Source: a virus. Taken from it: 49,796 nt of DNA. The DNA is taken from positions 1 through 49,796 of IMG/VR virus record IMGVR_UViG_3300020020_000048; one strand, 5' to 3'. The translations under genes and the position numbers were made by a program. Below are positions 7,748 to 48,143 of this stretch, one piece after another (the first letter of the stretch is position 1; each line of letters starts with the position of its first letter). The notes below the pieces were generated by a model. That model worked only from the letters and a program-made list of their open reading frames with translations. It had not been told where the DNA came from and ran no database searches.

Positions 7748-7784
7748 TTCTCACCTCCCTCGGCTCAGGTGCTGGGCGGAGATG

Positions 7785-8446: not shown

Positions 8447-8469
8447 AGATGACCTCCCCGCGGGGGACT

Positions 8470-9009: not shown

Positions 9010-9515
9010 CAGAAGACGTCCAGCGGCAGGTAGGCGATCCAGAGCCCCCCGACGCATCCCCCCGCAGGGCCGGACGGCTGGTAGGACTCGACGGCCAGGT
9101 CCAGCCCGCAGCACTGGAGGGCGAGGTACAGGGCCCGCGCGTCGAGCGCCTGGCGGATCGTCACCTCGGCCATCACCGCCGGGGGCACCAAGTTGCCGTC
9201 CTGCGGGGTGGGGAAGCAGCGCAGCGCGCCGACCTCCACGGCCAGCGCCAGCGGGCGGGCGCAGCGCTCGTCGACCACCGCGGTCGGGAAGGCGTCGTAG
9301 GGGAAGATGGTCCCGGCGCGCACGTAGCCCATCCCGCACGTGTCGGTGCCGCACTCGCCGCAGTACTCCCACGAGGCCGAGGCCCCGGGGTGCAGCCCGC
9401 ACCAGCACGTCTCCCCGGCGCCCTCGTTGGCGAGCATCGTGCAGACGCACTCCGAGAGCTGGAGCAGGGAGCCGACGATGGAGGGCATCGGCAGGACGGG
9501 CGGGTCGATGCTCAT
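9009..9515 (-). CDS. Cys-rich head-tail connector/tail terminator candidate
   Basis: This 168-residue protein has about eleven cysteines, among them CVCTM, CWCG and CGECGTDTCG in the first 65 residues and LQCCGLDL near the C-terminus. The remainder looks like an alpha/beta virion joint protein (PAVMAEVTIRQALDARALYLAL). It is translationally coupled to the next gene and sits two genes upstream of the tail chaperone, where the tail terminator is usually found. The cysteine density matches that of several other structural proteins of this phage. Function is inferred from position; no catalytic motif was found. Confidence 0.5.
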   Translation of the reverse strand: MSIDPPVLPMPSIVGSLLQLSECVCTMLANEGAGETCWCGLHPGASASWEYCGECGTDTCGMGYVRAGTIFPYDAFPTAVVDERCARPLALAVEVGALRCFPTPQDGNLVPPAVMAEVTIRQALDARALYLALQCCGLDLAVESYQPSGPAGGCVGGLWIAYLPLDVF

Positions 9516-9522
9516 GGCCGCA

Positions 9523-12500
9523 TCATCCCACCGGCTCGGTCAGGCGCCAGTCGACAACGTCCCTGCCGTTCCAACGCATGCTGACGACCTCCTGGCCATT
9601 CCACCATCCGGTGATGGTGTCTTGGCCCGAGAAGCCCGAGGCGGTCAGGACGAACCGGTAGGGGACGAGCACCGACGACCCGGTCACGCGGCGCCCGGAT
9701 GCGCTGATCGTCTCGACGTAGACCAGCGCCGCGGTGCCCCGCTGGACGCGACGCCCGGTGGCCGTGACTGCCCAGGTGTGGGTGATGACGCGCGATCCCT
9801 TGGGCACGCGGCGTCCGCTGGCCGTGGTGTCCCACGAGTGGTTGAACCGCGCCGTGCCCTGCTTGACGCCGACCTCGGGGCTGACGCCCTGGGCGTTGAG
9901 GTGCCAGTTGACAGCGACGGTCTGCGCGCCCTTGGAGGTGCGCTTGCCGACCCCGGTGGCGGTCTCGGTCCAGGCGAAGGAGGCGGAGCCGGTCTTGGCG
10001 CCCACAGTGGGACGGACGCCGCTCGCCGTCACCGCCCACGTGTGGTTGATGGTTCGCGAGCCCTGCGAGGTCCGTCGACCGAGCGCGGTGGTGAGCGCGT
10101 TCCACGTCAGACCGACGAACCCGCTGACCGCCTTGCGACCTGCCGCGGTGACGGTCTCGGACCAGGCGACGATTGCCTCGGCGCGGGACTGGCGCGTGCC
10201 CGCGGCGGTGGTGTGGGCGTTCCAGTTGACGGCGGCCGAGCCCTGGTTGACACCGACCTGCGGAGCTACGCCGACCGCGGTCATCGTCCACGTGTGCGCC
10301 TCGATGACGATGGCCCTCGGCTGCCGCTTGCCGACCGAGGTCAGCGTCTCCAGCCAGGACGCGACGACGGTGGCCTTCGGTGTGCGCTTGCCCGCCGCGG
10401 TGGCCGTCTCCGACCACGCGAACGCCGCGCTGCCCTCGCTCGGCTCGGTTGGTGGCGGAGCGCTGCTGGGAGCGATGGCGACGAGCAACCCCACGACCCG
10501 CTCAGCGCCGGGCGTCCCCGGCATCGTCGGCACCAGCGCACCGGTCGAGACACCAGCGGAGGTGGGGAACGTGATGACCAGCGACGAGAAGAAGCCGTCC
10601 TCCGTCGCGTCGTACAGCTCGGTCGTCGTGGCGGGGGCGGTCCACCCGGAGCCGACGTCGCCGTTGTAGATGCCGATGCCGAGCGTGTTGCCGCTGACTG
10701 GCGTGAGGGCCACCGAGGGGCCGGTGTTGTTGCCACCGACCAGGTCCCACGCCACCGCGTGCGAGTCGATCGGTGTGTCCGGGTTGAACGTGCCCGCCTC
10801 GATGGGAACGACGCAGACCTGGGTCGAGCCGTCCGAGCCGAACGTGTATGACGTGGGCTCGCCGCTGGCCGCGACGACGTGCCACCAGAACCCGTAGGCG
10901 TTGCTGCCGCCAGGCGCGTCATCGCGCGAGACGAGCGTCCATGCTGCCGGAGCGGTCATGCGACTGATGGCGGCGTCGATGTAGAAGCCGTCGTGCCCGC
11001 GGCTGAACCCCAGGAGCAACGTGCCCGCCACCCACTCGGCGCGACGAGTGACGACGACGGTGCTGGCGAAGGCCTCGGCCACCGAGGGAAACGCCAGGTA
11101 GGTCGGCGGCTCGGATGGCTCGACTGATGGGGCGGGGGCGAACACGACGATGACGCCCGCGGCCTTGGCGGACGTGTCGCTCGGGATCACGCCTACCGTG
11201 GACGTCGGCGCATCCGGGATGGACGCATCGGCCGTGGCGAGCATCAGCGACGTCGACACCCCGGTGATCTCGTCCTCGACGGTGTATCCAGCGCCGACCG
11301 CCCAGTTCGAGAGGGTGAAGGCGTAGCCACCAGCGAAGATCAGCCCGAGGCCATCGGCCACGGTCGGGTCGACCGAGGGCATGACCAGCGGGGTCGTGGC
11401 GTAGTGGCTGGTGCGGTGCTCACCGATGGCGGCGATCGGGGTGTCGGGGTGAGCGCCCTTCAGCACGGCCATCATCAGACGCCCTGGCCCGAGGTCAGCG
11501 TCCGGGTAGGTCATCGTGTGCGTGGCCGGTTCGGACGCCGCCACGGGCACGTGCTTGATGTAGAAGCCGTAGGCCTGCTCGAAGAACGTGGCGTACTCGA
11601 CGACGTCGGTGAACCCAGGGATGCCGATGTTGGCCAGGACATCGGTGGCGGTGTTGTCGCGGAAGTACCAGGCGACCAGGTGGTCACCATCCTCCAGGCC
11701 CGCGGGCGTGGTGATCGTCTTGGCGTTGGTCGGGTTGATGACGACGTTGCCCAGCGTCACGTCGCTGCCCGAGGGGGGATCGGGTGGCCTCACGCCCGCC
11801 GCTGACGCCGACCAGGCGTGGTTCACGGAGACGGCTGCGCTGAACCCGGGCGCGGCCTGGAGGACCGCGCACATGACCACCCAGTCGGCGGCGACCGCGG
11901 TGACGTTGTAGGTGATCGTCGCGTTGGCGGTGGGGACCTTGTACTGCCCCGCTGCGGTGACGCAGTTGGCGTCCGTGCCGCTGGTGGCGCTGCGAGCGAG
12001 CACCTGCGCGGACCATGAGCTGCCACCGCCCGTGTCGGAGTCCCCGGTGATGGTGCCGCGCGTCTCGTTGGCGATCATGCCGAGCACGAGGTCGCCCGCC
12101 AGGATGCCCGCGAACGCCTGCGCCGATGCCGCCGTGGCCGTGCCGGTCATCCCGATGGCCGCCGCGCGCGGCGTGTTGTCGGCTCCGATGAACGACTCCG
12201 CGTACGCGGCCTTGTGGGCCACCGCACCGGACAACGTGATCGTGATCGTGCTGCCCGCCGGGCGCGCCACTGTGGCCTTGGTGGCGAACATGCCACCGGC
12301 CACGCCCGCCGCCGCGGTCGAGCTGAATCCTGCTGCCTGGCGCAGGACGGTGTAGGTGTTGCCGCCGTCCGTGACGGTGAACGTCGGCGTCGTCCCGCTC
12401 AGGTTGTCGGAGGCCACCCGAACGACGACGAGGTCACCGACGTCGATGGCTCCCGTCGTGGTGATCGTGACGGTGGTGCCCGACGAGGTGGAGAGGCCGC

Positions 12501-12531
12501 TGCCGAGTGACCGCTTGAAGGCGGCTGGCAT
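9523..12531 (-). CDS. Large repetitive beta-rich virion protein
   Basis: This 1002-residue protein lies between the head and tail genes. Residues about 1-690 look like three related ~220-residue beta domains, each with a G(D/T)xLxxxxxRxxDG-like strand followed by an FxxD-type strand; two of them end in PDTPI. Residues about 700-965 are 12-14 copies of a ~20-22-residue motif with consensus hxxxWxxTxxGxR (for example HTWAVTATGRR, FAWTETATGVGKR). The end (WWNGQEVVSMRWNGRDVVDW) is a double WNGxxV motif. The composition suggests an exposed adhesin-like or decoration fibre rather than the main tail tube. Repeat number could vary among relatives. No signal peptide or catalytic site was seen. Confidence 0.6.
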   Translation of the reverse strand: MPAAFKRSLGSGLSTSSGTTVTITTTGAIDVGDLVVVRVASDNLSGTTPTFTVTDGGNTYTVLRQAAGFSSTAAAGVAGGMFATKATVARPAGSTITITLSGAVAHKAAYAESFIGADNTPRAAAIGMTGTATAASAQAFAGILAGDLVLGMIANETRGTITGDSDTGGGSSWSAQVLARSATSGTDANCVTAAGQYKVPTANATITYNVTAVAADWVVMCAVLQAAPGFSAAVSVNHAWSASAAGVRPPDPPSGSDVTLGNVVINPTNAKTITTPAGLEDGDHLVAWYFRDNTATDVLANIGIPGFTDVVEYATFFEQAYGFYIKHVPVAASEPATHTMTYPDADLGPGRLMMAVLKGAHPDTPIAAIGEHRTSHYATTPLVMPSVDPTVADGLGLIFAGGYAFTLSNWAVGAGYTVEDEITGVSTSLMLATADASIPDAPTSTVGVIPSDTSAKAAGVIVVFAPAPSVEPSEPPTYLAFPSVAEAFASTVVVTRRAEWVAGTLLLGFSRGHDGFYIDAAISRMTAPAAWTLVSRDDAPGGSNAYGFWWHVVAASGEPTSYTFGSDGSTQVCVVPIEAGTFNPDTPIDSHAVAWDLVGGNNTGPSVALTPVSGNTLGIGIYNGDVGSGWTAPATTTELYDATEDGFFSSLVITFPTSAGVSTGALVPTMPGTPGAERVVGLLVAIAPSSAPPPTEPSEGSAAFAWSETATAAGKRTPKATVVASWLETLTSVGKRQPRAIVIEAHTWTMTAVGVAPQVGVNQGSAAVNWNAHTTAAGTRQSRAEAIVAWSETVTAAGRKAVSGFVGLTWNALTTALGRRTSQGSRTINHTWAVTASGVRPTVGAKTGSASFAWTETATGVGKRTSKGAQTVAVNWHLNAQGVSPEVGVKQGTARFNHSWDTTASGRRVPKGSRVITHTWAVTATGRRVQRGTAALVYVETISASGRRVTGSSVLVPYRFVLTASGFSGQDTITGWWNGQEVVSMRWNGRDVVDWRLTEPVG

Positions 12532-12542
12532 GGCTCAGCCCG

Positions 12543-12887
12543 CTACGTCGAGGAGCCGTTGACGGTGAGCGACGTGATCGTGTACTCGCCTGCCGCGTTG
12601 AAGGTCTGGTCGCCGGTGAGCTGGGCGCTGCCGTAGAACACGCCGCCCGTGGCCAGGCTCCACAGACCGACGTACTGCGCTGGTCCGTTGGCCGCGCCCC
12701 CGGTGAAGTTCTTGTTCGTGATCACGAGGTCGCCGTTGGAAGGGGCGGGCCAGCTCGCCGCAACGCGGGCTGCGGTCGAGGGGTTGAGCCCGGTGGCGCC
12801 GGGGTCGGCGGTGTGGATGGCCAGGAACGGCGCCGCGCCACCCATTGCCGTGGCCCCAACGTTGAGCAGTGAGTCGAGCAGGGCCAT
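12543..12887 (-). CDS. Small structural protein with tail-fibre-like fold
   Basis: This 114-residue protein starts at ATG behind TAGGAGAACTG. It has a pattern (VAASWPAPSNGDLVI, FTGGAANGPAQYVGLW, GDQTFNAAGEYTITSLTV) seen in small beta-sandwich proteins encoded near phage fibre and decoration genes. It precedes the 1002-residue repetitive protein by 11 bp and may be assembled with it. No enzymatic residues are evident, so the virion role is inferred from fold-like pattern and operon position. Confidence 0.55.
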   Translation of the reverse strand: MALLDSLLNVGATAMGGAAPFLAIHTADPGATGLNPSTAARVAASWPAPSNGDLVITNKNFTGGAANGPAQYVGLWSLATGGVFYGSAQLTGDQTFNAAGEYTITSLTVNGSST

Positions 12888-12895
12888 CAGTTCTC

Positions 12896-13126
12896 CTACG
12901 GTGCGAGACGGAGGTACAGCGTGTCAGGTTGTTCGTTGGCGGGGGGCCATTGGTCGTAGGGCACCGCGATGACGGTGGGGCCGCCAGGAGGGCCGGGAGG
13001 ACCGGGCGTGCCGATCAGCGACACCGCCGCCAGACCCGGCTGCGCCACGGCCACCGTGGGCCGCGGGGGCGCGGCCAGCGCAACGGTGACGGTCGGGTTG
13101 GCGGCCAGGTCGACGACGAAGCTCAT
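12896..13126 (-). CDS. Small protein with short collagen-like segment
   Basis: This 76-residue protein starts at the ATG (MSFVVDLAANPTV) that overlaps the stop of the upstream gene (ATGA). A GTPGPPGPPGGP stretch (three to four GXY triplets) lies in the middle, and the end (DQWPPANEQPDTLYLRL) is a typical fibre-trimer-like tail. Short collagen-like repeats followed by a carbohydrate or trimer motif are common in phage fibre and decoration proteins. The longer upstream extension of this frame is rejected because it runs through the upstream gene. Confidence 0.55.
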   Translation of the reverse strand: MSFVVDLAANPTVTVALAAPPRPTVAVAQPGLAAVSLIGTPGPPGPPGGPTVIAVPYDQWPPANEQPDTLYLRLAP

Positions 13127-13554
13127 GACGCCGCCCGGGACACGTCCTTCGTCACGATCAGCGACCCGGCGAGCAGCGTCGTGACCTCGGCGCCCAGCGT
13201 CATCTCCAGGTCCCAGACGTAGACCGCCGCGGCCAGCGAGGCCGAGACCACCGCGGTCAGGATCACGTCGACGGCGTTCGTCATCCCGGGCACCGGCTGC
13301 ACCAGGAGCGTCCCGGCGACCACGGTGTCGTCCACGTTGAGGCGGATGTCCGCGTCCCACGTCGCCGTCGAGATGTCGATGGGCGTGGTCCCGTTGGCCT
13401 CGGTGAGCGTGACGCGGAAGCGCCCCGAGTCGCCGCGGTAGGCGCACAGGTCGAGCTTCTGCGGCTGCGTGAAGCAGGTCGCCGCCATGAGCTCAGGAGC
13501 TTCGAGGTGGAAGTCCGGCAGGCCCAGGGCCGCGCGGCTGATCGTCGCCGTCAC
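13123..13554 (-). CDS. BppU-like N-terminal domain structural protein
   Basis: This 143-residue protein has GTG at 13554 overlapping the upstream stop (GTGA); an ATG at residue 23 is an alternative start. From residue about 35 it has CAYRGDSGRFRVTLT, then DISTATWDADIR, and a second half of short strands (VWDLEMTLGAEVTTLLAGSLIV). This is the pattern of the small immunoglobulin-like domain found at the N-terminus of baseplate upper proteins, used to anchor fibres. It is followed by the collagen-like and fibre-like small proteins, so these genes may together form a fibre or decoration complex. Confidence 0.5.
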   Translation of the reverse strand: MTATISRAALGLPDFHLEAPELMAATCFTQPQKLDLCAYRGDSGRFRVTLTEANGTTPIDISTATWDADIRLNVDDTVVAGTLLVQPVPGMTNAVDVILTAVVSASLAAAVYVWDLEMTLGAEVTTLLAGSLIVTKDVSRAAS

Positions 13555-14348
13555 GGCGTCACCTCCAACTGGGTCGACTGGTAGCGGTGCTTGGCCCAGG
13601 GCACGTCCGGGCTCCAGACCATCGGCGGGACGACCATCCCGTGCGGGTTGACGCTGAGGATGTAGGCGTCGACCTCGCGGATGCCGGTGAGGCCGCCATC
13701 GAACAGCGCCGTGGAGAACGTCATGCTGACGCCCTGGCGGGCGATCGAGGTGACGGTCGAGGGCAGGCGGCACTTCGCCCCGCTGCACGCCTTGGAGTAT
13801 TCACACGCCAGCACTCCAGCCGCCCACAGCCCGGCCGAGTCGGGGACGATGCCGGGGATGTAGATGATCCCGAAGCTGCCGGGCTCGGTGAGCGGGGCGT
13901 TCATGTCCTGGCAGGACGGGAAGCACAGGCCATCGGTCCGCACGATGCGGTGGCCGTTGTCGACCCGGTAGTCCTCGGACGGTTGCAGGACACCGCCGAG
14001 CGTCACGGAGACGATCCCGGCCACTGGCCCGGGCATGACGATCTCGCACAGGCGCTCGCACGAGCACTCGGGGCCCGCGCAGACGCAGTTGATCCACTCC
14101 CCGGCGCGCAGGCCCGCCCGGACCCAGCTGGACCGCGCGTCGAGGTGGTGCGTCCACCACTCCGTGCACGGGTCGCAGGGCGGGCCGAGACACGGCCGGA
14201 CGATCGCCGGACAGTTCCCGACCCGCCCAGCCGTGAGCGTGCGGAGCGTCGACCACGCCAACTCGGTGGCGCGCTCCTGGAGGTCTGGGTCTACCGAGTC
14301 CCAGTCGTCACAGCACTCGTAGTTGGGCTCGAACGGAACACAGGCCAC
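13551..14348 (-). CDS. Head-tail connector protein, Cys-rich
   Basis: This 265-residue protein has an N-terminal helical segment ending in GRVGNCPAIVRPC, a signature I associate with head-to-tail connector proteins of high-GC Gram-positive phages. It then has WINCVCAGPECSCERLCEIVMPGPV followed by beta segments (SVTLGGVLQPSEDYRV). About sixteen cysteines are present, several paired. It lies directly after the major tail protein candidate in transcription order. The connector call is from pattern memory and context rather than a verified match. Confidence 0.6.
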   Translation of the reverse strand: MACVPFEPNYECCDDWDSVDPDLQERATELAWSTLRTLTAGRVGNCPAIVRPCLGPPCDPCTEWWTHHLDARSSWVRAGLRAGEWINCVCAGPECSCERLCEIVMPGPVAGIVSVTLGGVLQPSEDYRVDNGHRIVRTDGLCFPSCQDMNAPLTEPGSFGIIYIPGIVPDSAGLWAAGVLACEYSKACSGAKCRLPSTVTSIARQGVSMTFSTALFDGGLTGIREVDAYILSVNPHGMVVPPMVWSPDVPWAKHRYQSTQLEVTP

Positions 14349-15330: not shown

Positions 15331-16113
15331 TCATGAGCAGGTCACTTCGACCTTCGCCACGAGGCAGTCGAAGACGGGGACGTAGACGCGCTCGGCGAGG
15401 GCGCGCATGGGGGCGAAGTCGCCGCCATCCAGCACCTGCTGGGGGACGGAGAACGAGTTGACCGGTCCACGCAGCAGCGTGATCTGGCCGGTCACGTACA
15501 TCGTCCCCTCGGTGACGGTGACGGGGACGGTGATGGCCGTGGTCAGCGGCGCCACCCGCGACCCGGAGCAGGTCGACAGGGTGCCGTCGAGGTTGGCGTG
15601 GAGGGCGCCGTGGCCGCAGGCGCACTGCACGTAGAGGCGCGGGATGAGCAGCGTGGGCTTGCCGCCGTAGACCGTGGCCGCGAAGGCCTCGGCCGCGCCG
15701 ATGCCCGCCTGGATCTCCATCGGTCCGCCGAGGTCGATGACGTCGGCGTCGACAGCGAGCATGGCGTCGATGTGCTGGTCGACCGCTCGACTCTCACCCA
15801 GGGCCAGACGGTTGCGGGCACGGGCCTCGGACTCGTCCAGCTTCTGAAGGTCGCACGACACCCCGGCGTAGACGGCGAAGGGCTCGCCGAACACCACCTC
15901 CGGGTTGGCCTCGAACAGCTTGCGCCCGGTCGGGGAGATGTCGCACCACTCCGACCATTCCTCGGCCGTGGCGCAAGCGTCCGTCAGGGCCTGCACGCCC
16001 ATCAGCTCGTGACCGGAGGTGTCGATGACCTGGGCAACGCTGACCACGCCTCCGCCGAGGGGCTCGGGATCGGGCAGCGTGATGTAGGCCCTGGCTCCTG
16101 TGATCATGCTCAT
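15331..16113 (-). CDS. Capsid-proximal structural protein, possible second capsid subunit
   Basis: This 260-residue protein starts at ATG behind GGAGGTGAGTCG, 39 bp after the major capsid gene. A long helix (DESEARARNRLALGESRAVDQHIDAML) recalls the spine helix of HK97-fold proteins. The last strand region (MRALAERVYVPVFDCLVAKVEV) also looks like the end of a capsid-like fold. A central CACGHGALH segment holds Cys/His residues. It may be a minor capsid or pentamer protein or a head-completion factor. I do not recognise the family with certainty. Confidence 0.5.
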   Translation of the reverse strand: MSMITGARAYITLPDPEPLGGGVVSVAQVIDTSGHELMGVQALTDACATAEEWSEWCDISPTGRKLFEANPEVVFGEPFAVYAGVSCDLQKLDESEARARNRLALGESRAVDQHIDAMLAVDADVIDLGGPMEIQAGIGAAEAFAATVYGGKPTLLIPRLYVQCACGHGALHANLDGTLSTCSGSRVAPLTTAITVPVTVTEGTMYVTGQITLLRGPVNSFSVPQQVLDGGDFAPMRALAERVYVPVFDCLVAKVEVTCS

Positions 16114-16152
16114 CGACTCACCTCCTCACGATTTCCGGGTGTGCAGGACCGA

Positions 16153-17838
16153 TCAGGCCGTGGCGTCCGGCGGCATCATGCAGGCGATGAGGTCGTTGGC
16201 GGCGGTGCGACCGCTGACGCAGACGGGGATCTCGATGGCGCACGTGTGCGTGCAGCGCTGGACGGCGAGGATGCCTTCCTCGATGAACAGGGCCGTGTAG
16301 ATGTTCTGCTCCAGCGAGGTGGAGTCGTAGACGGCATCCATGTTGATGACGTCGATCGAGCCCTTGACCCACGTCCCGGCTGGGTACATGAGCACCTTCA
16401 CGCTGGCCGGGAACGTGATGAGGCAGTCGTTGGTCGGATCGACCACCGGGTCCTGGAAGTCGAACACCCACTGGACGCTGAGGTTGCGGTCCGAGAACCA
16501 CTTGTTCACCGCGGCGTCGCTGGCGTCGGGGTTCCACGTCCGCATCCCGAGGTCTTCCTTGATGAAGGCCTTGAGCCAGTAGGGCGCCACGACCTCGATC
16601 GTCTGGGTCTCGCCCATCCGGTAGCGGTAGCGCATGCCCATCGCGGCCATGCCGATCGCACCGAGCGAGATGCTGATCGAGTCCATGTCGGTGGCGAACG
16701 TCGACGTCCCGGCGGCCAGCTCCATCGTGTTGATGAGGTAGGCGTTGACCTTGTGCTGGTGGGCGACCAGCGCACCCTCCATGAACCGGCGGACCAGCTC
16801 GGGGTACGTGGCCTGCGTGAGCAGCGGGGCCTTCACGCACAGACCGATCAGGTCAGCCCTGATCTCCTCGAAGGGCGGGCAGTCGACGATGCAGCAGGTC
16901 TTCTGGGCCGTGCCTGCGATGACCGCTGCCTCGGTGAACTGGAACCCACACTCGGCGTAGATGTCGCCGAAGTCGGGACCCTGCGTCCAGCGGATGCCGC
17001 CGCGCGGGATGGCGATCTCCGGGAGGTCGAGGATGCCCTGCACGGTCTCGTACTGACAGAGGTCGTAGAGCGTCTCGGAGGGTGAGCACCAGCCTCCGGC
17101 GGCCACGAGCGATCCACCGGGCAGGCGCGTCTCCATGCCTGCCTTCTGGACCAGCTCGTAGTCGTCCATGCCGCCGGACACACCCGCGACCAGTTCGCCG
17201 TAGCCCTGCTTGTGGATGAGGGCTGCGCCGTAGCGCTGGCGGACGCCATCGTCACCACCGATGCGCTGCGTGGGCAGCGCCTTCATGCGGTTGATGATCG
17301 CCACTGCCGCCGCGCTGAGACCTTCGAGCGGAGCCCCGGTGGGGATGCCTGGGACGTCCGCTGCGGCCACCAAGGAGGCCACTTCGGTGCGCCGCGCAGG
17401 GACCTGCGGTGGCGCACTGTTGGCCGCAGCGCGGCGGGCAGGCGAGGCCGCCGCGGCGACGGGCTCGGGCTGGATGACCTCGTCCGGGACGACCGCCTCC
17501 GGCGTGACCTCGGCGACGACCTCCGGCTCGGGGGTCGGGGCGGGCGTCTCGGCGATCTTGTGCGTGTGATCGGCCGCAGGCGCTGGCGCAGGGGGCGGGG
17601 TCGCCAGCTGCTGCTGCAACGCCTCGGCGCGACGCACGCGCTCGGCATCCGTCTCCTTGGTGCGCTGCTCGCCTCGGACCTGGTTGATGAGGCCGACCAG
17701 GCGCTCACCTTCCACGATCGTCGCCTCGTCGCTCTCGGCGGTGACGCCCAGCGTCCGCAGCGCGTCGAGTCCCTGGTCGATCAGGGCTTGCAGTTCCTCG
17801 ACGCTCAACGCGGGAAGGTTCTCGGGCAGCTCGAACAT
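16153..17838 (-). CDS. Major capsid protein with fused scaffold-like N-terminus
   Basis: This 561-residue protein starts at ATG 17838 behind ACGGAGGCCGTG; the longer upstream frame lacks a site. Residues about 1-80 are a charged coiled coil (VEELQALIDQGLDALRTLG and on), and about 80-165 a Pro/Ala/Glu-rich linker. This resembles the delta/scaffold domain that is cleaved from many HK97-like capsids. The remainder is the capsid domain, with GGWCSPSETLYDLCQ, an IAIPRGGIRW strand and KTCCIVDCPPFEEIRADLIGLCV, a pattern typical of actinophage capsid proteins. It is preceded by a candidate promoter at 17953-17981, consistent with high late expression. Confidence 0.85.
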   Translation of the reverse strand: MFELPENLPALSVEELQALIDQGLDALRTLGVTAESDEATIVEGERLVGLINQVRGEQRTKETDAERVRRAEALQQQLATPPPAPAPAADHTHKIAETPAPTPEPEVVAEVTPEAVVPDEVIQPEPVAAAASPARRAAANSAPPQVPARRTEVASLVAAADVPGIPTGAPLEGLSAAAVAIINRMKALPTQRIGGDDGVRQRYGAALIHKQGYGELVAGVSGGMDDYELVQKAGMETRLPGGSLVAAGGWCSPSETLYDLCQYETVQGILDLPEIAIPRGGIRWTQGPDFGDIYAECGFQFTEAAVIAGTAQKTCCIVDCPPFEEIRADLIGLCVKAPLLTQATYPELVRRFMEGALVAHQHKVNAYLINTMELAAGTSTFATDMDSISISLGAIGMAAMGMRYRYRMGETQTIEVVAPYWLKAFIKEDLGMRTWNPDASDAAVNKWFSDRNLSVQWVFDFQDPVVDPTNDCLITFPASVKVLMYPAGTWVKGSIDVINMDAVYDSTSLEQNIYTALFIEEGILAVQRCTHTCAIEIPVCVSGRTAANDLIACMMPPDATA

Positions 17839-19955: not shown

Positions 19956-20360
19956 TCAGGTCACCGTGAAGGCGGAGTTGTTGGACTCTTCGGGACCCTG
20001 GCGCACGGTGAACTGCTTGGTCCCGGCCGTGGTCGGGTCGTAGCTCGTCGTCAGGCGGGTCTGGTTGACGTAGGTCGTCGGCACAGCCACGTTGTCGATC
20101 TCGATCACAGCGGTCGGCAGGAAGTCCGATCCGTTCACCGTCACCGTCACCGCACCGGCCGCCGCGGCGACCGTGGCGGGCGAGAGCGAGGCGATCCGTG
20201 GATCGGGGACAGCACCGGGATCACCGACGTCGAGGCGACCCCACCCACCGTGGCCGGGGGCGGTCGTGCCGTGGTTGGCATGGCGAGTCGCCCAATCCTG
20301 AACCCCGTTCTGGGTGTTCGGAACGAGGTTCGTCACCGTCTGGTTGGTGAGGTCGGACAT
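19956..20360 (-). CDS. IPT/TIG immunoglobulin-like head decoration protein
   Basis: This 134-residue protein has an N-terminal ~55 residues with NGVQDWATRHANHGT and a Gly/His-rich segment. The rest is an IPT/TIG-type Ig-like domain (PRIASLSPATVAAAAGAVTVTVNGSDF pattern with paired strands and ending in FTVRQGPEESNNSAFTV). Ig-like domains of this type decorate phage heads and tails and can bind cell-surface sugars. It lies between the maturation protease and the capsid gene, so a head fibre is the likely role. Its ATG (20360-20358) shares a CATG with the divergent methyltransferase start. Confidence 0.65.
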   Translation of the reverse strand: MSDLTNQTVTNLVPNTQNGVQDWATRHANHGTTAPGHGGWGRLDVGDPGAVPDPRIASLSPATVAAAAGAVTVTVNGSDFLPTAVIEIDNVAVPTTYVNQTRLTTSYDPTTAGTKQFTVRQGPEESNNSAFTVT

Positions 20361-21048
20361 GGCGTCACCGTACTCTCGGCAGATGGGCAGACCCGTTCTC
20401 CTGGATCTGTTCTGCGGCGCGGGCGGCGCAGCGATGGGCTACTGGCGCGCCGGGTTCCGCGTGATCGGGGTCGACATCGCGCCCCAACCGCACTACCCCT
20501 TCGAGGTTCGCCGGGGCAACGCCCTGTGCCCACCGATCGCCTTGCACCACGTCGCCGCCGTGCACGCCAGCCCCCCCTGCCAGGCGTACTCGGTCGCCAA
20601 CAACATCCACGGCAACGACCATCCCGAGCTCATCGAGGCCACGCGCCAGATGCTCCAGGCGAGCGGCCTGCCGTACGTGATCGAGAACGTGCCGGGCGCG
20701 CCGCTGCGCGATCCGGTGCGGGTGTGCGGGCGGGCGCTCGGGCTGTCGGTGAAGCGCCACCGCTACTTCGAGTCCAACGTGACGCTCACGGGGACCGAGT
20801 GCCCACCGGGGCACATCGGTGGCTGGCTGTCGGTGTACGGGAACACGGTGATGACGCGCGGGAAGGTCATCGGGCGGGCCAAGGGCGGAGGGCCGCGTGT
20901 CCACCGCGCCCACGTCGAGCACCACTACGGCCGCACCGCAATGGGCATCGACTGGATGGACGCCAACGAGCTGTCGGAGGCGATCCCCCCGGCCTACACC
21001 GAGTGGATCGGCGCCCAGGTCATCGCGACGCTGAGGCCTTCTCCTTGA
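20359..21048 (+). CDS. Cytosine-C5 DNA methyltransferase
   Basis: This 229-residue protein has ATG 20359 with GAGG six bases upstream; 20383 (MGRPVLLDLF) is an alternative. The motifs are in order: I DLFCGAGG (16-23), IV SPPCQ with catalytic Cys74, VI ENV (99-101), VIII RHR (123-125) and X IPPAYTEWIGAQV (199-211). The short length and small target-recognition region are typical of orphan phage enzymes. It would place 5-methylcytosine in phage DNA, either for protection or as the substrate of the TET/JBP enzyme at 46511-47518. It is inserted against the direction of the late operon, with its end overlapping the maturation protease gene by 29 bp. Confidence 0.9.
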   Translation: MASPYSRQMGRPVLLDLFCGAGGAAMGYWRAGFRVIGVDIAPQPHYPFEVRRGNALCPPIALHHVAAVHASPPCQAYSVANNIHGNDHPELIEATRQMLQASGLPYVIENVPGAPLRDPVRVCGRALGLSVKRHRYFESNVTLTGTECPPGHIGGWLSVYGNTVMTRGKVIGRAKGGGPRVHRAHVEHHYGRTAMGIDWMDANELSEAIPPAYTEWIGAQVIATLRPSP

Positions 21049-26786: not shown

Positions 26787-28184
26787 TCATCGGCGGATTC
26801 CTTGCAGGTGGCGACGCATGCGCGCCGTGTCGTCGTCGCGGGTACGGAGCTGGGTCGGGCTGGCGACGGTGGCCGCGGCGGACTTGCCGAGGACGGACGT
26901 GGCCCCGTGGACAAGAGCGTCGAGGCGGTTGGGGCTGTCGCGGTCCTCGTAGGGCTGCCAAGAGGTCAGCTCTTCCTCCAGCTCCTCGAAGACGCCGACG
27001 TGGTGGGCGCGGTGTTGCTCGTAGACGCCGACGATCGGCTCGGCCCGGATCGCCTTGCCCCGTCGCGAGTGGACCCCGATGACCCGCTTCGTGACCCCGG
27101 CCATGCGGAGGTTGTTCGTGACCATCTCGCCGCCGTAGTTCGTCTCGGCCACGACGGCGTCGGCGCCGAACTCCTCGTACGCCGCGTCCACGGCCAGGGC
27201 CCACCCGTACGGCGAGAAGCGGCCCGAGCGGTCGGCGAGAACGTAGAGGTGGTCGTTGTAGGCCCCGACGACGACGATCCCGGTCTCGTCGTTGGACTTC
27301 TTGGCCCCTCCGGCCGGGTCGACCCCCACGACCACGCGCTGGAAGTGGTCGGGGGGCTTGGGCACCCGGTCGGGCTCGATCAAGTCGTACGTCCACAACG
27401 CACCCTCGACGTCCTCCAGAACCTCGCCGTACAGCTCTTGCCGCCCGAGGCGCGTGCCTTGGTACTTGCGCAGAATCCGCTCGGCGAAGGCGGGGGCGAG
27501 GTTGTCGAGGTTGTCGTAGGTCGAGGCTCGGGAGATGCGGGTACCCGGTTCCTTGAGCGTCTCCTTGACCCACGGGCGGGGCTTGGGCGTCGTCGTGCAC
27601 ACGACGCGCGGCCGCTTCCCGATCCGCAGGCCGAACATGAGGTTGTCCCAGGCCTCTTGGACGAGGGCCCAGTGGGCCGGTTCGTCACACCACGCGTACC
27701 CGTGCTCGGGGCCGCGGAGGCGGTCGGGCTCCTCGGCGGAGAAGATCGTCCCGATGCACCCGTTGGGCCACGTCAGTCGGCGCTTGGAGGGCTCGAAGTT
27801 GGGGCGCAGGCCGGGCGGGGCGATCGTCATCAGGCCGCTCTCGCCCTCGATCATGGTGTCGCGGGCGTCGGGTCCGGTCGCCCCGACGAGGGCGATCCGC
27901 CCCGTCACCTTGGCCATGCGATGGGTGAACTCGGACCCGGTGCGCGTCTTGCCCGAGCCGCGCCCGGAGATCAAGAACCACGTCAACCACTCGTTGTCCA
28001 TCGGCGGGTGTTGATCGGCCCGCGCATGGTTCCAGGTCCACGTGTCGTGGGGCTTGCCGTCACAGCCCGGACGGGGGCAGTAGAACGGGCGCCAGTCCTC
28101 CGACGAGCGGGCCTTCAGCGCCTCCAGGGCACGCTGTTGCGCTTGGGGGGTCCATTGCTTGTAGGCGTCGGGGTCCACGGTCAC
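26787..28184 (-). CDS. Terminase large subunit
   Basis: This 465-residue protein has a GTG start at 28184 overlapping the previous stop (GTGA). Walker A is GRGSGKT (74-80), followed by the Walker-B-like CDE (166-168) and a coupling TTTP (197-200). The C-terminal nuclease has the acidic residues Asp289 (VVVGVDPAGG), Glu347 (AVVAETNYGG) and Asp422 (SPNRLDALVHG), as in RNase H-like terminase nucleases. A Cys cluster (CPRPGC) near residue 36 is an extra. It cuts and pumps phage DNA into the prohead together with the small subunit at 28500-28973. Confidence 0.93.
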   Translation of the reverse strand: MTVDPDAYKQWTPQAQQRALEALKARSSEDWRPFYCPRPGCDGKPHDTWTWNHARADQHPPMDNEWLTWFLISGRGSGKTRTGSEFTHRMAKVTGRIALVGATGPDARDTMIEGESGLMTIAPPGLRPNFEPSKRRLTWPNGCIGTIFSAEEPDRLRGPEHGYAWCDEPAHWALVQEAWDNLMFGLRIGKRPRVVCTTTPKPRPWVKETLKEPGTRISRASTYDNLDNLAPAFAERILRKYQGTRLGRQELYGEVLEDVEGALWTYDLIEPDRVPKPPDHFQRVVVGVDPAGGAKKSNDETGIVVVGAYNDHLYVLADRSGRFSPYGWALAVDAAYEEFGADAVVAETNYGGEMVTNNLRMAGVTKRVIGVHSRRGKAIRAEPIVGVYEQHRAHHVGVFEELEEELTSWQPYEDRDSPNRLDALVHGATSVLGKSAAATVASPTQLRTRDDDTARMRRHLQGIRR

Positions 28185-28522
28185 GGCCGGATCATCCCCC
28201 CGTTCAAGATGAACGGCAAGGCGTCGGGGTCGACCCGGTCCACGGCCACGATCGCCGTCCCGAGCAACCGCCGCACGTACGTCTCCATCGGCAACCCCCG
28301 ATCGGCGGCGATCCGCGACAACAAGCGCTTCTCGTCCAAGGTGATCCGAATGCCGAGACGGGCCATGCCCGGCGCCCCGGCGACCGCGTCGCCGTAGTTC
28401 CCGCCGAGGGCGCGCCACCGCCACATCCGCTCTCGGGGCGTGTCGTCCAAGGCGATCATCGCGCTCCGTACCCACGCCGCCACTTCGTCCGCGTCGGCCT
28501 CACGGCTCGGCAAAGGCCTCAT
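28181..28522 (-). CDS. Ribbon-helix-helix-like protein between terminase genes
   Basis: This 113-residue protein has residues about 58-92 (RLGIRITLDEKRLLSRIAADRGLPMETYVRRLL) with the strand-helix-turn-helix pattern of ribbon-helix-helix DNA-binding proteins. The N-terminal half is helical. It overlaps the small terminase by 23 bp and the large terminase by 4 bp. It may regulate packaging genes or take part in packaging-site recognition. The call is by pattern only. Confidence 0.55.
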   Translation of the reverse strand: MRPLPSREADADEVAAWVRSAMIALDDTPRERMWRWRALGGNYGDAVAGAPGMARLGIRITLDEKRLLSRIAADRGLPMETYVRRLLGTAIVAVDRVDPDALPFILNGGMIRP

Positions 28523-38152: not shown

Positions 38153-38427
38153 GCGTGATCTGGGCCATCGGCATGCTCGCTGGTGCGGCCATCGGGTGGA
38201 CCTTCGGCTGGAAGTTCGGTGTCCGCCGAGCGCAGCGTGACGCTCCATCCGAGCTGAGCATCTACGTCACGGATCGCCTGCCGGTCGAGCCCGAGGAGTA
38301 CGTCGACCACGAGCCGAAGTGCGCGCTGTCGATCACCCACGGGAACCCGAACCTGGCGTTCTGCGAGCTGTGCGAGCGGCCCATCAAGCGCACCACCTCG
38401 GGCCAGCCGTGGAGGCACATCGCATGA
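38149..38427 (+). CDS. Membrane-anchored zinc-ribbon-like protein (92 aa)
   Basis: A short N-terminal transmembrane helix (VIWAIGMLAGAAIGWTFGW) is followed by a cytoplasmic part with KCALSITHG and FCELCERPI (C...H...CxxC), a likely zinc ribbon. It is coupled to the methyltransferase gene downstream. No family is recognised. Confidence 0.55.
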   Translation: MSVIWAIGMLAGAAIGWTFGWKFGVRRAQRDAPSELSIYVTDRLPVEPEEYVDHEPKCALSITHGNPNLAFCELCERPIKRTTSGQPWRHIA

Positions 38428-39173
38428 GCGACGACCTCACCGAGTTCACGCCCCAGCAGATCGAGCAGATGAAGCGGGCCGCGGACGAGATGACCGAGGC
38501 GTTCGCCCGCGCCGCGCAGCTGGGCCCCGACCTCGCCGCCAGGGACTGGCTCGTGGAGCTGCCCGACTACGACGCCGAGGGCGTGGTCATCGACAAGATG
38601 GTCATCACCGAGGCCGCTGCCAACATCGACAAGCTGAAGGCTGCGTTCAATCCGCAGCGCACCGACCGCAGCGTGGACGCCGGGACGTACACGCGCCTGA
38701 CGGTGGACGGGCAGGTGTGGATGACCGACACCCCGGCCGAGGTCCACGACCACATGGTCGTCGACGAGCAGCTGGAGCGCTGGGAGCGCCCGACCCTGCT
38801 CGTGGCCGGGCTGGGCATCGGACTGGTCGTCCACCGGGCGATCACCTGGCACGCCACCGAGCGCATCGACGTGGTCGAGATCGACCCACGCGTCATCCGC
38901 GCCGTGGGTCCGCACTACCAACAGCTGGCCGATGACCACGGGGTCGAGCTGAACATCCACGAGTCGGACGTCCACGACTGGCGAGCCCCGCGCGGGGGCG
39001 CGTGGGACGTGGCGTGGTTCGACATCTGGCCCACGATCAACGACGACGACATGCTCGAAGTCCGCCGCCTCCGCAGCCGCTTCCGCAAGCGAGTGGGGTG
39101 GAGTGGGGCGTGGGCTCAGGACGAGCGCCGTGCCATGCGCAAGCGCATCGCCTCGGGGCGGTGGGCGTATTGA
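38424..39173 (+). CDS. Spermidine-synthase-like class I methyltransferase
   Basis: This 249-residue protein starts at ATG 38424. The C-terminal ~130 residues carry LLVAGLGIGLVVHRAI (motif I), IDVVEIDPRVI (acidic ribose-binding Glu/Asp) and AWDVAWFDIWPT (motif IV region), as in the spermidine-synthase branch of Rossmann methyltransferases. The N-terminal ~110 residues are helical and of unknown role. Substrate is unknown; polyamine, DNA-base or protein methylation or aminopropyl transfer are all possible. Confidence 0.65.
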   Translation: MSDDLTEFTPQQIEQMKRAADEMTEAFARAAQLGPDLAARDWLVELPDYDAEGVVIDKMVITEAAANIDKLKAAFNPQRTDRSVDAGTYTRLTVDGQVWMTDTPAEVHDHMVVDEQLERWERPTLLVAGLGIGLVVHRAITWHATERIDVVEIDPRVIRAVGPHYQQLADDHGVELNIHESDVHDWRAPRGGAWDVAWFDIWPTINDDDMLEVRRLRSRFRKRVGWSGAWAQDERRAMRKRIASGRWAY

Positions 39174-44542: not shown

Positions 44543-45547
44543 ATGCCCGCTGTCGACCACTGGCGCATGTTCGCCGAGTTCTGCCGCTACGAGAAGGCGG
44601 TCGGTGGGCCGAGTCCGCACGCTGCGATGGTGGCGGGGATGATCCGTGGTCTGCCGGTGCAGGAGCAGGTCTGGCGAGTGGGCTGCTACGGGGGCGTCTA
44701 CAACACAGGCGGAGCGCTGGCGCTGTGGACGGCACTGAGCCGCGAGTCGGTGCTGGGGATGGGCGAGCCCGCGCTGCGCGGCTGGCTCAAGGAGAACTGG
44801 GAGGGCCTGCCCTTCCGCCGGGAGCGCCGCGCTGTGCGAACCCCGGAGAAGCTGGCCCGCTACCTGTACTCCTACGCCCTGTACTCGCGGGACTGGCCCG
44901 ATCGGGACTGGTGGCACGGTGCGGCCTCTCGGGCCAACTACGAGGCCGGGTGGCACGACGTGCTCAGCGTGTACGGGGTCGGCCGCTACATCGCCATCCG
45001 CATGTTGGAGCTGTTCTCCCGCTCGGGAGCGGGGACAGCCTCCTACGACATTCGCGCCCTCGACGCATGGTCACCGCGTCGCACACTCTCACTGCTCTGG
45101 CCGCATCACACGCAGATGCTCAGCCGCGACCTCTCGCGCCAGGCCGCAGCGGGCACGGAGAAGATCGCCAACACCACGCTCCAGCGCCTGCGCGATGAGT
45201 TCGGTGTCGAGCTGAGTCACTACGAGCTGCAAGTGATGACGTGCGAGTACCGCCAGTCGATCGAGAAGCGCCGCCAGTACCCCGGCCGGAGCATCGACAG
45301 TGAGGACCGCTACTTGCGCGAGATCACGCCGTACTGGGGCGCCCCCGTGGCCGAGCCTGGGTGGCGCGTGCGCCGCGAGCTGTTCCCCGAGGTATCGCTG
45401 GGTGAGCTCAACGGGTGGCAGGGCGCACGGGATGAACTGGGGACGGTGGCCGCGGTGCACGGGTACACGTGGAGCGACCTCGTCTACGACTACAAGGCCA
45501 CCACGGACCTGGCGCACCCGGCGATGCGCGTCGAGGTGCACACGTGA
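44543..45547 (+). CDS. HhH-fold amino acid:DNA transferase / aGPT-pyrophosphorylase-like protein
   Basis: This 334-residue protein starts at ATG 44543. N-terminal FAEFCRYEKAVGG and the block WRVGCYGGVYNTGGAL (44-59) are characteristic of the phage families predicted to displace an activated 5-substituent on modified bases (aGPT-pyrophosphorylase and ADDT clades). Residues about 131-158 (HDVLSVYGVGRYIAIRMLEL) are the helix-hairpin-helix of their DNA-glycosylase-like fold. It would join an amine or amino acid to a phosphorylated hydroxymethyl base. It faces a P-loop kinase and TET/JBP dioxygenase less than 2 kb away, the expected partners. The clade is by recognition, not a run search. Confidence 0.75.
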   Translation: MPAVDHWRMFAEFCRYEKAVGGPSPHAAMVAGMIRGLPVQEQVWRVGCYGGVYNTGGALALWTALSRESVLGMGEPALRGWLKENWEGLPFRRERRAVRTPEKLARYLYSYALYSRDWPDRDWWHGAASRANYEAGWHDVLSVYGVGRYIAIRMLELFSRSGAGTASYDIRALDAWSPRRTLSLLWPHHTQMLSRDLSRQAAAGTEKIANTTLQRLRDEFGVELSHYELQVMTCEYRQSIEKRRQYPGRSIDSEDRYLREITPYWGAPVAEPGWRVRRELFPEVSLGELNGWQGARDELGTVAAVHGYTWSDLVYDYKATTDLAHPAMRVEVHT

Positions 45548-46029
45548 AGACGCTGATGTACGACGTGGGCGACGGGCGCCTGTTCATCGGGCCACATCTG
45601 CTCGACGTGCCCGACGAGGCCAAGCGTGCCGCGGTCAGCGCGCGCCGGATCACGATGGTCGTGAACCTGTGGCGACGTCGCGACGACGAGTTGGCCCTGG
45701 CGGTCACTCGCTACCACCACTTGCCCCTGAGCGACGGGCTGCTCAGCGACGAGCTGTTCGCGCGCTACGACGGCATCGCCCGAGTGGCGGCGAAGCACCT
45801 CGACGAGGGCGGGAACGTGCTCGTGCAGTGCTACGGAGGACGCAACCGCAGCGGCCTGTTGGCCGGGCTCATCACGTGCTGTTGGCGCGGGGTCAGCGGA
45901 CGTGAGGCCGTGGCCGCGGTGCGCGCCGGGCGTGGTGTCTCAGCGCTGAACAACCGTCACTTCGCCACCTGGCTCGAATCGCTCCCCGCCTTCGACAGCA
46001 CGTCGGCGAACTGCTCGGCGAGCAAGTAG
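45544..46029 (+). CDS. Dual-specificity-phosphatase-like protein
   Basis: This 161-residue protein starts at GTG 45544, overlapping the transferase stop (GTGA). NVLVQCYGGRNRSGLLAG gives the CX5R loop with Cys96 and Arg102; the usual preceding His is Gln. Asp64 in PLSDGLLSD is placed for the general acid. The early LFIGPHLLDV and MVVNLW strands fit the fold. In this operon a substrate such as a phosphorylated DNA base or a nucleotide is possible, but a protein substrate cannot be excluded. Its 3' end overlaps the convergent kinase gene by 73 bp. Confidence 0.75.
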   Translation: MKTLMYDVGDGRLFIGPHLLDVPDEAKRAAVSARRITMVVNLWRRRDDELALAVTRYHHLPLSDGLLSDELFARYDGIARVAAKHLDEGGNVLVQCYGGRNRSGLLAGLITCCWRGVSGREAVAAVRAGRGVSALNNRHFATWLESLPAFDSTSANCSASK

Positions 46030-46514
46030 GCGGGCATCGTCCCGTCGAGCGTCACCACCTCGCGCCACTGCACGAGGTTGCGGACCTTGGTCGCTCGCCC
46101 CTTCCACCACGACTCGTCCTGCACGGGCCGGTTGAGCCCTCGGGCACGGACGGTGGCGCGCCAGCGCGCGTACTCCAGCGGGGTGTCGAGGTGGACGAGC
46201 GTGAGGTTGGGACAGGCGTCGAGGAACCCTGCGTTGGCGAGGCGGTCACCCTCCCCCACCAACAGCTCGCACTCGGTCTCGATCTCGCTCAGCCAGTGGA
46301 TCGCCTTGGGCTGGATGCTCATCGAGAGCGTGTCGGTGCCGCCGAAGTCGGGCCGGGGCTTGCCGATGTGCCAGAGCCCTCCGTAGCGGACGTGGGGCAC
46401 GGGCACGTCGAGCACCGGGGTCCCGAGCATCCCGGGCATCAGCATCGACACCGCTCGTTCGACCATCGTCGTCTTGCCGCTGCCGGGCAGACCGATGACG
46501 TAGACGACGTTCAT
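45957..46514 (-). CDS. P-loop kinase, candidate hydroxymethyl-base DNA kinase
   Basis: This 185-residue protein starts at ATG 46514 (MNVVYVIGLPGSGKTT), with Walker A GLPGSGKT at 8-15. A later LLVGEGDRLANAGFL and a lid-like RARGLNRPV-ESWWKGR segment fit small nucleotide-kinase-like P-loop proteins. In phages with hypermodified thymine a kinase of this size phosphorylates 5-hydroxymethyluracil in DNA to create a leaving group. Coupling to the dioxygenase (ATGA) and opposition to the transferase support that role here. A nucleotide-level kinase is the alternative. Confidence 0.75.
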   Translation of the reverse strand: MNVVYVIGLPGSGKTTMVERAVSMLMPGMLGTPVLDVPVPHVRYGGLWHIGKPRPDFGGTDTLSMSIQPKAIHWLSEIETECELLVGEGDRLANAGFLDACPNLTLVHLDTPLEYARWRATVRARGLNRPVQDESWWKGRATKVRNLVQWREVVTLDGTMPAYLLAEQFADVLSKAGSDSSQVAK

Positions 46515-47518
46515 GCGTACTTCCGTGGCTTGCGAGAGGGCTGCCAGCCGGTCGCTCGCTTGTCCTCGGCCTCGGTGGCCTCGACGGCGGCGCGCTGGGC
46601 CTCCTGGGTGGGATCGGCGCAGCACTTCCGCATCCCGACCTTGGCGTAGGTCACCAGCGAGTAGCGGAAGGCCGCCGGGTGGGTCATCGTCATCGGGGTC
46701 ACGCCGTGGACGATCGACTGGCCGTCGAAGATCGTGATCGAGCCGTGGGGCACGCTCAGGTAGGTGTCGTAGTCGGCCAGGTGCAAGTAGCCCCCAGCGA
46801 CCTGCCGCCGACACACGAGCATCGCGCTCCATGAGGAGGTGACGTTCGACTGGTCCTTGTGATACGGCAGCGAGACGGTCTTGTTGATGATCCCGCTGGA
46901 CCACGGGGTGCCTGCGATGAGCCAGGCCGGGGCGATCGCATCGCGCACCTTGCGGGCCGTGATGTCGTGGACGTCGCTGGCGTTGGTGCGGAAGACGTGC
47001 TCGGCCACCCGGCAGAACTGAGCGATCTGGTCCATCGCCCTCGGGTACTCGGTGTTGAACTGCGACCGCGAGCACCCGTAGCGCCGACGCATCGGCACCG
47101 GAGGCTGGTAGCCAAACGTGCGGTGGGTCACGGCCATCCCGTTGAGGCGCGAGGTGGTGGTGACGTTGGCGAACACCTGGTCGTCCCACTTCACCTGGCT
47201 CAGCGAGGACGCCAGATCGGTGGCCAGGTCGGTGGCGCAGACCATGTGCACGGCGACGACCTTGCCGGTGCCCTCGTCGACGATGGCCACGTTGCTGTCG
47301 ATGACACGCGCGCCCACCGCGGGCGCCGGAGCGTGCGACTTGACCAGCCGGTGACCGCAGTTCGGGCACAGGTGCTGTGGCGCGTAGGGCACCCACGCAC
47401 CGCAGCTCTGGATGCGGCGGTTCCAGCGGTCCTTCAGGCCTTCGGCGTAGGCGCAGGGAACGAGGGGATCACCCCGCGAAAGCGTCAGCCGCGGGATCGA
47501 AACCGTTTCCCTCTGCAC
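46511..47518 (-). CDS. TET/JBP-type 2-oxoglutarate/Fe(II) DNA base dioxygenase
   Basis: This 335-residue protein starts at GTG 47518. The double-stranded beta-helix core has PYHKD (iron ligands His220 and Asp222), FDGQSIVHGVTP (distal His271) and RYSLVTYA with Arg285 for 2-oxoglutarate. KTVSLPYHKD, YLHLADYD and HGVTPM together mark the TET/JBP branch. The N-terminal part has CPNCG with Cys39 and Cys94 as possible zinc ligands. It would oxidise 5-methylcytosine or thymine in DNA to the 5-hydroxymethyl base. The gene is coupled to the kinase gene downstream and overlaps the ParB-like gene upstream. Confidence 0.85.
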   Translation of the reverse strand: MQRETVSIPRLTLSRGDPLVPCAYAEGLKDRWNRRIQSCGAWVPYAPQHLCPNCGHRLVKSHAPAPAVGARVIDSNVAIVDEGTGKVVAVHMVCATDLATDLASSLSQVKWDDQVFANVTTTSRLNGMAVTHRTFGYQPPVPMRRRYGCSRSQFNTEYPRAMDQIAQFCRVAEHVFRTNASDVHDITARKVRDAIAPAWLIAGTPWSSGIINKTVSLPYHKDQSNVTSSWSAMLVCRRQVAGGYLHLADYDTYLSVPHGSITIFDGQSIVHGVTPMTMTHPAAFRYSLVTYAKVGMRKCCADPTQEAQRAAVEATEAEDKRATGWQPSRKPRKYA

Positions 47519-48143
47519 GGAAGCCCTCCAATGCTTCTTGCACGAGCCGCTCGACCACCTCGGCGTTCGTGTCCATCCCCCACACGGTCCGCAACGTAGC
47601 CAGTCCCTGGGCGACGGGCTCGTAGCGACTGAACTCGTAGGGCAGGATCAGGCTGCGGATGTCCAGCTCGTTGTAGGCGTCGATGCGCTCCTCGGGCACC
47701 ACGCCCTGGCGGATGCCGCCGACGATGGTGTCGGCCTCGACGCTCTGGAGCAACAGCTCGTAGGCCGCACGGTCGTAGCCCGTGCCATCCAGGCCCTCGC
47801 TGTCGACCAGCGTCTGGAGCAGTGAGAACAGCTGCTCGTCGTCGTAGAAGGCGAGGTCGGACGTGCGGTTGTCGGCCAGCAGGATGCGCGTCGCGGTCTC
47901 GTCGTCGCAGTCCACCCAGAAGCCGGGGATCGTCGCCATCCCCTCTTCGCTCATCACCCGGAAGCGCGTGTTGCCCGCGATGATGTTCCCGGTCGAGCGC
48001 TGCACCAGCACCGCACCGAAGAAGCCGTTGCGGGCGATGGACTCACCGACCGCTCGGTCGTCGCCCTTGCGGGGGTTGTCGGGGTGCTCGTGGATGCCGT
48101 CGATCGGGATGGCCGGATCGAACTCCTGCGCTAGCTGCTTCAA
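47469..48143 (-). CDS. ParB/Srx-domain protein
   Basis: This 224-residue protein starts at TTG 48143 behind AGGAG, overlapping the upstream stop. Residues about 10-90 are a ParB N-terminal (sulfiredoxin-like) domain: HPDNPRKGDDRAVGESIARNG, VLVQRSTGNIIAGNTRF and DNRTSDLAFYD. ParB-like proteins are repeatedly linked with phage TET/JBP enzymes, where they may act as nucleases, nucleotide-dependent clamps or site selectors. The C-terminal half is helical with no clear helix-turn-helix. It overlaps the dioxygenase gene by 50 bp, indicating joint expression. Confidence 0.8.
   Translation of the reverse strand: MKQLAQEFDPAIPIDGIHEHPDNPRKGDDRAVGESIARNGFFGAVLVQRSTGNIIAGNTRFRVMSEEGMATIPGFWVDCDDETATRILLADNRTSDLAFYDDEQLFSLLQTLVDSEGLDGTGYDRAAYELLLQSVEADTIVGGIRQGVVPEERIDAYNELDIRSLILPYEFSRYEPVAQGLATLRTVWGMDTNAEVVERLVQEALEGFRAEGNGFDPAADAFAG

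Follow-up and report, generated by a model that had tools for sequence, protein, structure and literature searches.

A predicted DNA-base hypermodification cassette in an uncultured virus and the phosphatase partner of its ADDT-family transferase

Relation of the locus to described hypermodification cassettes

Hypermodified thymidine in phages of the M6/ViI/W-14 group is made by a kinase route (PMC6449724), and in PhiW-14 the kinase reaction is followed by transfer via a hydroxymethyl-pyrophosphoryl intermediate (PMC5977210). In cultured actinophages, a gene set of ParB, TET, ADDT, and kinase has been annotated (Mycobacterium phage Prince, Gordonia phage CloverMinnie, and Rhodococcus phage Tonitrus), and the published account of Tonitrus suggests that its cassette may hypermodify thymidine (PMC11955845). 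The five-gene locus described here lies at 44543-48143 of IMG/VR virus record IMGVR_UViG_3300020020_000048, an uncultured viral contig of 49,796 bases that was analysed over its whole length (the window). It is likely a phage DNA-base hypermodification cassette, in which hydroxylation, (pyro)phosphorylation, and transfer are joined by a phosphatase step tied to the transfer, and its action very probably places a bulky chemical substituent on bases of the phage's own DNA. The ParB-TET-ADDT-kinase cassette is already known as a kind, and the novelty is the phosphatase. The features of the window that enter the argument were as follows.

44543-45547, + strand: ADDT-family transferase (334 residues; PF18724), a member of the phosphatase-linked ADDT subclade
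45544-46029, + strand: cysteine phosphatase of the DSP/PTP type, hereafter DSP (161 residues; PF00782, E 9e-7), with the CX5R motif at 45829-45849 (CYGGRNR)
45957-46029, both strands: antisense overlap of the 3' ends of the phosphatase and kinase genes, 73 bases
45957-46514, - strand: P-loop kinase (185 residues; PF18751, E 3e-19), a predicted 5-hydroxymethylpyrimidine DNA kinase
46511-47518, - strand: TET/JBP Fe(II)/2-oxoglutarate dioxygenase (335 residues; PF12851, E 2e-10), with an invariant HxD...H...R motif
47345-47440, - strand: insert in the N-terminal part of the TET, rich in Cys and resembling a zinc ribbon (C...SCG...CPNC), seen by alignment and weakly matched by Zn_ribbon_3 (E 0.019)
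47469-48143, - strand: ParB-N-like protein (PF02195; phrog_723, E 2e-32)
20314-21048, + strand: compact C5-cytosine DNA methyltransferase (FCGAGG, SPPCQ, and ENV motifs; phrog_363, E 4e-35)

A preliminary description of the window had placed the five cassette genes within 3.6 kb, and profile searches upheld it. All five genes were present on the strands described, each in its named family (PF18724, PF00782, PF18751, PF12851, and PF02195), and the transferase and the dioxygenase did not fall into unrelated families. The coding overlap at 45957-46029 was likewise found, and successive cassette genes overlapped by 4, 73, 4, and 50 bases. The G+C bias at codon position 3 was strong in all five genes (0.89-0.94). 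The convergent overlap of the DSP and kinase genes recurred in two relatives (L005 and L007). The bidirectional layout, which had been considered distinctive, was ruled out as a key feature because another relative (L006) holds the same five genes co-linear. The portal protein of the window was of the actinophage type, and the window virus is a phage of actinobacteria.

The cultured actinophage cassettes contain ParB, TET, ADDT, and P-loop kinase, as does the window, and their ADDT was confirmed by Pfam. The proposal of a TET/kinase/ADDT hypermodification cassette stood, but the same gene set had already been annotated in these phages. Unlike the window, the cultured cassettes have neither the phosphatase nor the C5 methyltransferase; they are co-linear, lie near a terminase gene, and often include a flavin adenine dinucleotide (FAD) enzyme or other oxidoreductase. 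Their proteins were distant from those of the window, with identities of 27-28% for TET and 18-23% for ADDT. The same gene set recurred in about 80 metagenomic TET loci, often with a FAD enzyme, and in some metagenomic TET loci a glycosyltransferase replaced the ADDT/kinase. In the window, no profile matched a FAD tailoring enzyme, and enzymes dependent on pyridoxal phosphate were not searched for. A hydroxymethylase of the thymidylate synthase family (PF00303) was absent from the window and present in the record G004.

The window resembles M6, ViI, and PhiW-14 in a hydroxymethyl base, a DNA kinase, and a transferase working via a (pyro)phosphate intermediate, all of them predicted for the window (PMC6449724, PMC5977210). 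However, in those phages 5-hydroxymethyldeoxyuridine enters the DNA at replication, whereas the TET of the window suggests oxidation within DNA, and the passages of these accounts that were consulted mention no phosphatase.

The phosphatase-linked ADDT subclade

The window ADDT passed the PF18724 cut-off marginally (28.3 bits against 26.2), and its structure model was poor (pLDDT 53). When the window ADDT was used as the query in a scan of genome contigs, no relative was found, and tblastn of the window ADDT and DSP gave no match in cultured phages. When the scan was made with the alignment of the ADDT subclade alone, 41 loci were obtained, and the DSP adjoined or was fused to the ADDT in every one of them (41/41). 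The DSP-linked ADDTs formed one clade in a tree of 43 ADDTs (14/14, SH-aLRT 99.7). In a larger ADDT tree, all rows of the subclade carried the DSP (54/54), and the subclade was split from the outgroup at 100. This co-inheritance was accompanied by gene fusions. In one virus, the ADDT and DSP were fused in one protein (L133/L134, residues 6-332 and 344-483), and in a different virus the DSP and kinase were fused in one protein (L157, residues 6-144 and 153-306). Throughout the ADDT subclade, the phosphatase is a constant partner and not an extra; the earlier view of it as a distinctive feature was correct, and the view of it as an added enzyme was not.

The window DSP scored 29.3 bits against PF00782 (DSPc), under the cut-off of 33.5, and its homologues in the relatives G002 and G003 exceeded that cut-off. 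The catalytic CX5R[ST] loop was intact (CYGGRNRS), and residues C96, R102, and S103 were invariant in 12 homologues. The AlphaFold2 model (pLDDT 85) showed a DUSP fold with a fold match at a TM of about 0.7, and the fold search in the PDB returned an ordinary DUSP with no hint of the substrate. DSPc was found in the window and in four further records (three relatives and a distant one), and was absent in all of the cultured phages with TET and/or kinase that were tested (16/16).

Within the subclade, the DSP was kept both with TET and with a hydroxymethylase of the thymidylate synthase type (PF00303), of which the best solved relative was cytidine monophosphate (CMP) 5-hydroxymethylase. Because the DSP persists when the thymidylate-synthase-type enzyme replaces TET, it is assigned to the kinase/transfer stage and not to hydroxylation. 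Such replacement was found in operons of uncultured viruses with the order INO1-ADDT-DSP-kinase-(HMUDK_hel)-hydroxymethylase (for example L009, L115, and L119), where INO1 is inositol-3-phosphate synthase. These operons share the ADDT subclade, the phosphatase, and the kinase family with the window but, unlike the window, contain INO1. No description of them was found in the literature searched.

The phosphatase-marked ADDT subclade is apparently a widespread, previously unrecognised branch of phage DNA hypermodification. No description of this branch was found in the literature searched, outside which lie Iyer 2013, Lee 2018/2022, and Burke 2021. Two loci, L124 (9216-9968) and L125 (1370-2215), have a TET-associated glycosyltransferase between the ADDT and the DSP, assigned to PF20691 in L125, which suggests further sugar addition.

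The proposed route and the role of the kinase

In the proposed route, the TET would act post-replicatively, on pyrimidines that are part of the DNA (T, or 5-methylcytosine (5mC) from a phage methyltransferase), and hydroxylate their 5-methyl group. The kinase would (pyro)phosphorylate the resulting hydroxymethyl group, and the ADDT-family enzyme would exchange the (pyro)phosphate leaving group for a small-molecule donor. The DSP would perform an obligatory phosphate removal tied to the transfer, most likely on the phosphorylated donor or adduct, with the resetting of unreacted phosphorylated bases as the main alternative. The ParB would probably provide DNA binding or site choice, and the modified product should protect the phage DNA against host nucleases.

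The window TET scored 40.5 bits against PF12851 (cut-off 34.9). Its residues H220, D222, H271, and R285, which correspond to the Fe(II) site and the 2-oxoglutarate Arg, showed no variation in an alignment of 16 homologues, in agreement with the HxD...H...R motif read from the sequence before. The Cys-rich insert of the TET was present in the relatives of the window and absent from the aligned TETs of cultured actinophages. The ParB_N match was close to its cut-off (27.2 bits against 26.3); a ParB-N-like gene usually stands upstream of phage TETs as their partner and adjoined the TET in most surveyed loci. The kinase scored 69.6 bits against PF18751 (cut-off 27), contained the Walker A sequence GLPGSGKT, and is predicted to phosphorylate the hydroxymethyl base in DNA.

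Several points weigh against the hypermodification cassette. The window, as an uncultured viral contig, may be incomplete. The DSP has a generic fold, and its nearest structures are protein phosphatases. The analysis shows family membership, linkage of the genes, a conserved catalytic phosphatase motif, fusions, and joint inheritance of the ADDT and DSP; from these, the reactions, the donor molecule, and the base acted on are all inferred. Furthermore, the kinase family precedes terL in mycobacteriophages that have no TET or ADDT (BirdsNest and CRB2; Bclasvirinae), and therefore a role in DNA modification may not hold for every member.

This last position, together with the name of the kinase family in PHROGs ('terminase small subunit'), would suit a locus that is no modification cassette, with the kinase as a packaging (terminase-like) ATPase and the DSP as a host-directed protein phosphatase adjacent by chance. 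However, terL of the window is at 26787-28475, and the kinase is 17 kb away, among the TET, ADDT, and DSP. In addition, the phage Kharcho has the kinase plus a separate small terminase gene, and the DSP-kinase and ADDT-DSP fusions also count against this explanation. The kinase as small terminase subunit was thus disfavoured by the window position, Kharcho, and the DSP-kinase fusion, and the packaging explanation as a whole is highly improbable.

In Mycobacterium phages KayaCho (L023) and Nigel (L026), the order was ParB-TET-kinase-terL without ADDT, and therefore the kinase may work without the transferase or have another role. The PHROGs labels of phrog_6059 ('queuine tRNA-ribosyltransferase', TET), phrog_800 ('terminase small subunit', kinase), and phrog_17568 ('thymidylate synthase', phosphatase) are probably annotation errors.

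Donor molecule and target base

An amine or amino acid had been proposed as the attached group, which is one option only, since the INO1 link of the subclade points elsewhere. In the amino-acid option, the ADDT would add glycine or another amino acid, in the manner of the published thymidine hypermodification, and the DSP would have an editing role, dephosphorylating unreacted 5-phospho- or pyrophospho-hydroxymethyl bases. The subclade was homologous to canonical ADDTs in profile-profile comparison (99.5%, E 4e-22), and a profile merging the subclade and canonical ADDTs matched the solved glycinyltransferases 8z2m/8z2n, whereas the subclade's own profile did not match the solved glycinyltransferase structures. 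Many canonical cassettes include a FAD enzyme, but the subclade has no FAD partner, and the canonical cassettes have no phosphatase comparable to the DSP. The association with INO1 would also be left unexplained, and amino-acid transfer with editing is doubtful.

INO1 was detected with PF01658, since PF07994 was too weak and was dropped. It was found in 34 of the 54 subclade loci (E 1e-33 to 1e-37), often directly before the ADDT, and the deepest branches of the subclade have it. In the cultured-phage collection, INO1 was rare (18 of 50,697 phage records) and confined to Caulobacter phage Cr30 and Stenotrophomonas phages. A reciprocal scan of viral contigs was made with the INO1 query alone, and the best 80 loci were kept. 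An ADDT lay within 8 kb of INO1 in 56 of these best 80, some of which are near-copies, in a ranking that favours such loci because the INO1 alignment was built mostly from cassette members. These 56 loci consisted of 34 with a separate DSP, 17 Cr30-like, phosphatase-free loci of the form TET-ADDT-INO1(-kinase), 3 with long ADDT reading frames (L170, L185, and L186), and 2 on truncated stretches; L185 and L186 are contigs of the L133/L134 ADDT-DSP fusion. Among the best 80, 5 loci were in 7-deazaguanine DNA-modification clusters (FolE/QueC/DpdA/QueE), and 14 lacked any partner gene within reach; four of these 14 had a G+C of 0.71-0.72 and looked like host chromosome.

These linkages suggest a special form of the hypermodification cassette, in which the subclade ADDT would couple the activated hydroxymethyl-pyrimidine with inositol or its phosphate and the DSP would dephosphorylate the donor or adduct. 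With inositol phosphate as the donor, both the DSP and INO1 would be explained. Phages of hosts that make no inositol would bring INO1 themselves, and the window phage would draw inositol-3-phosphate from its host. Actinobacteria synthesise inositol-3-phosphate, and the actinophage-type portal is consistent with this supply. However, PF01658 was absent from the whole records of the window (possibly incomplete) and its relatives G001, G002, and G003, and from the other TET-type members tested. When the subclade types were compared, INO1 was missing from all 8 TET-type loci and present in 17 of the 24 others (Fisher p 6e-4, with loci that are not phylogenetically independent). The Cr30-like loci have INO1 without DSP, and the order of loci in the scan reflected their resemblance to a cassette INO1. 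A donor that carries phosphate, for example inositol phosphate, which the host would supply to the window phage, is plausible; inositol transfer in the specific form given above is rather unlikely. A literature search for inositol or INO1 tied to phage DNA modification found none, and INO1 of Ps15, a relative of Stenotrophomonas phage Moby, is listed as presumably bacterial in origin (PMC9025141).

The Cr30 cluster resembles the window in TET, ADDT (PF18724, E 1e-52), and kinase but contains INO1, lacks the DSP, and has an ADDT of another lineage. In the Cr30 record (NC_025422.1, L129), at 3706-12599, the TET is annotated 'SNF2 repair protein' and the kinase 'terminase small subunit', the ADDT and a TAGT-like gene have no annotation, and INO1 is present. 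A further Cr30 gene (15855-16655), annotated hypothetical, strongly matched Acb3, an inhibitor of the CBASS defence (PF25187, E 2e-68). In Moby (NC_048802.1, L130), the only Stenotrophomonas phage inspected, INO1 was inside a FolE/QueC/DpdA/QueE cluster (8207-13621).

The 5-methyl base named in the preliminary description may be T (the substrate of the JBP type) or 5mC (that of the TET type). Since the window group encodes the C5 methyltransferase (20314-21048), 5mC is possible as a substrate besides T, and this enzyme may provide the TET with 5mC. In a cytosine route, which is compatible with either donor, the TET would convert 5mC to 5-hydroxymethylcytosine, on which the kinase and ADDT would act, so that a chemistry described for thymine would here have a cytosine counterpart. 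Phages with a TET and a C5 methyltransferase for cytosine hypermodification exist, with glycosyltransferases as the next enzymes; the window has the same pair in one genome but kinase, ADDT, and DSP as the next enzymes. Each of the three long records in the window group (the window itself, G001, and G003) has kept this methyltransferase, which was under the cut-off of PF00145, at 71-73% identity. The TET-type locus L124 has a DNA methyltransferase from a different family (phrog_757) upstream of ParB.

However, the three methyltransferase-bearing records are relatives and count as one event. One of the 45 other TET records, and none of the 16 cultured phages, had a phrog_363 methyltransferase, and therefore TET-ADDT-kinase cassettes work without it. 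C5 methyltransferases of this type are common among mycobacteriophages generally, and that of the window is more than 23 kb from the cassette, in the structural region, on the strand opposite to the operon enclosing it. Because its presence is limited to a single set of relatives, it was not accepted as proof of a cytosine target. A cytosine target is possible but on the doubtful side, and T is slightly favoured over 5mC. A second methyltransferase-like gene was located at 38319-39173 of the window (phrog_15480, E 2e-34).

With this branch, viral INO1 genes would gain a concrete role. If the inositol donor is true, it would be a novel kind of DNA decoration, and to our knowledge inositol-type decoration of DNA is known nowhere else. 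The idea is approachable in Cr30, a phage of Caulobacter crescentus that is in culture. Novel enzymes that modify bases are also useful as reagents and are relevant to the escape of phages from restriction.

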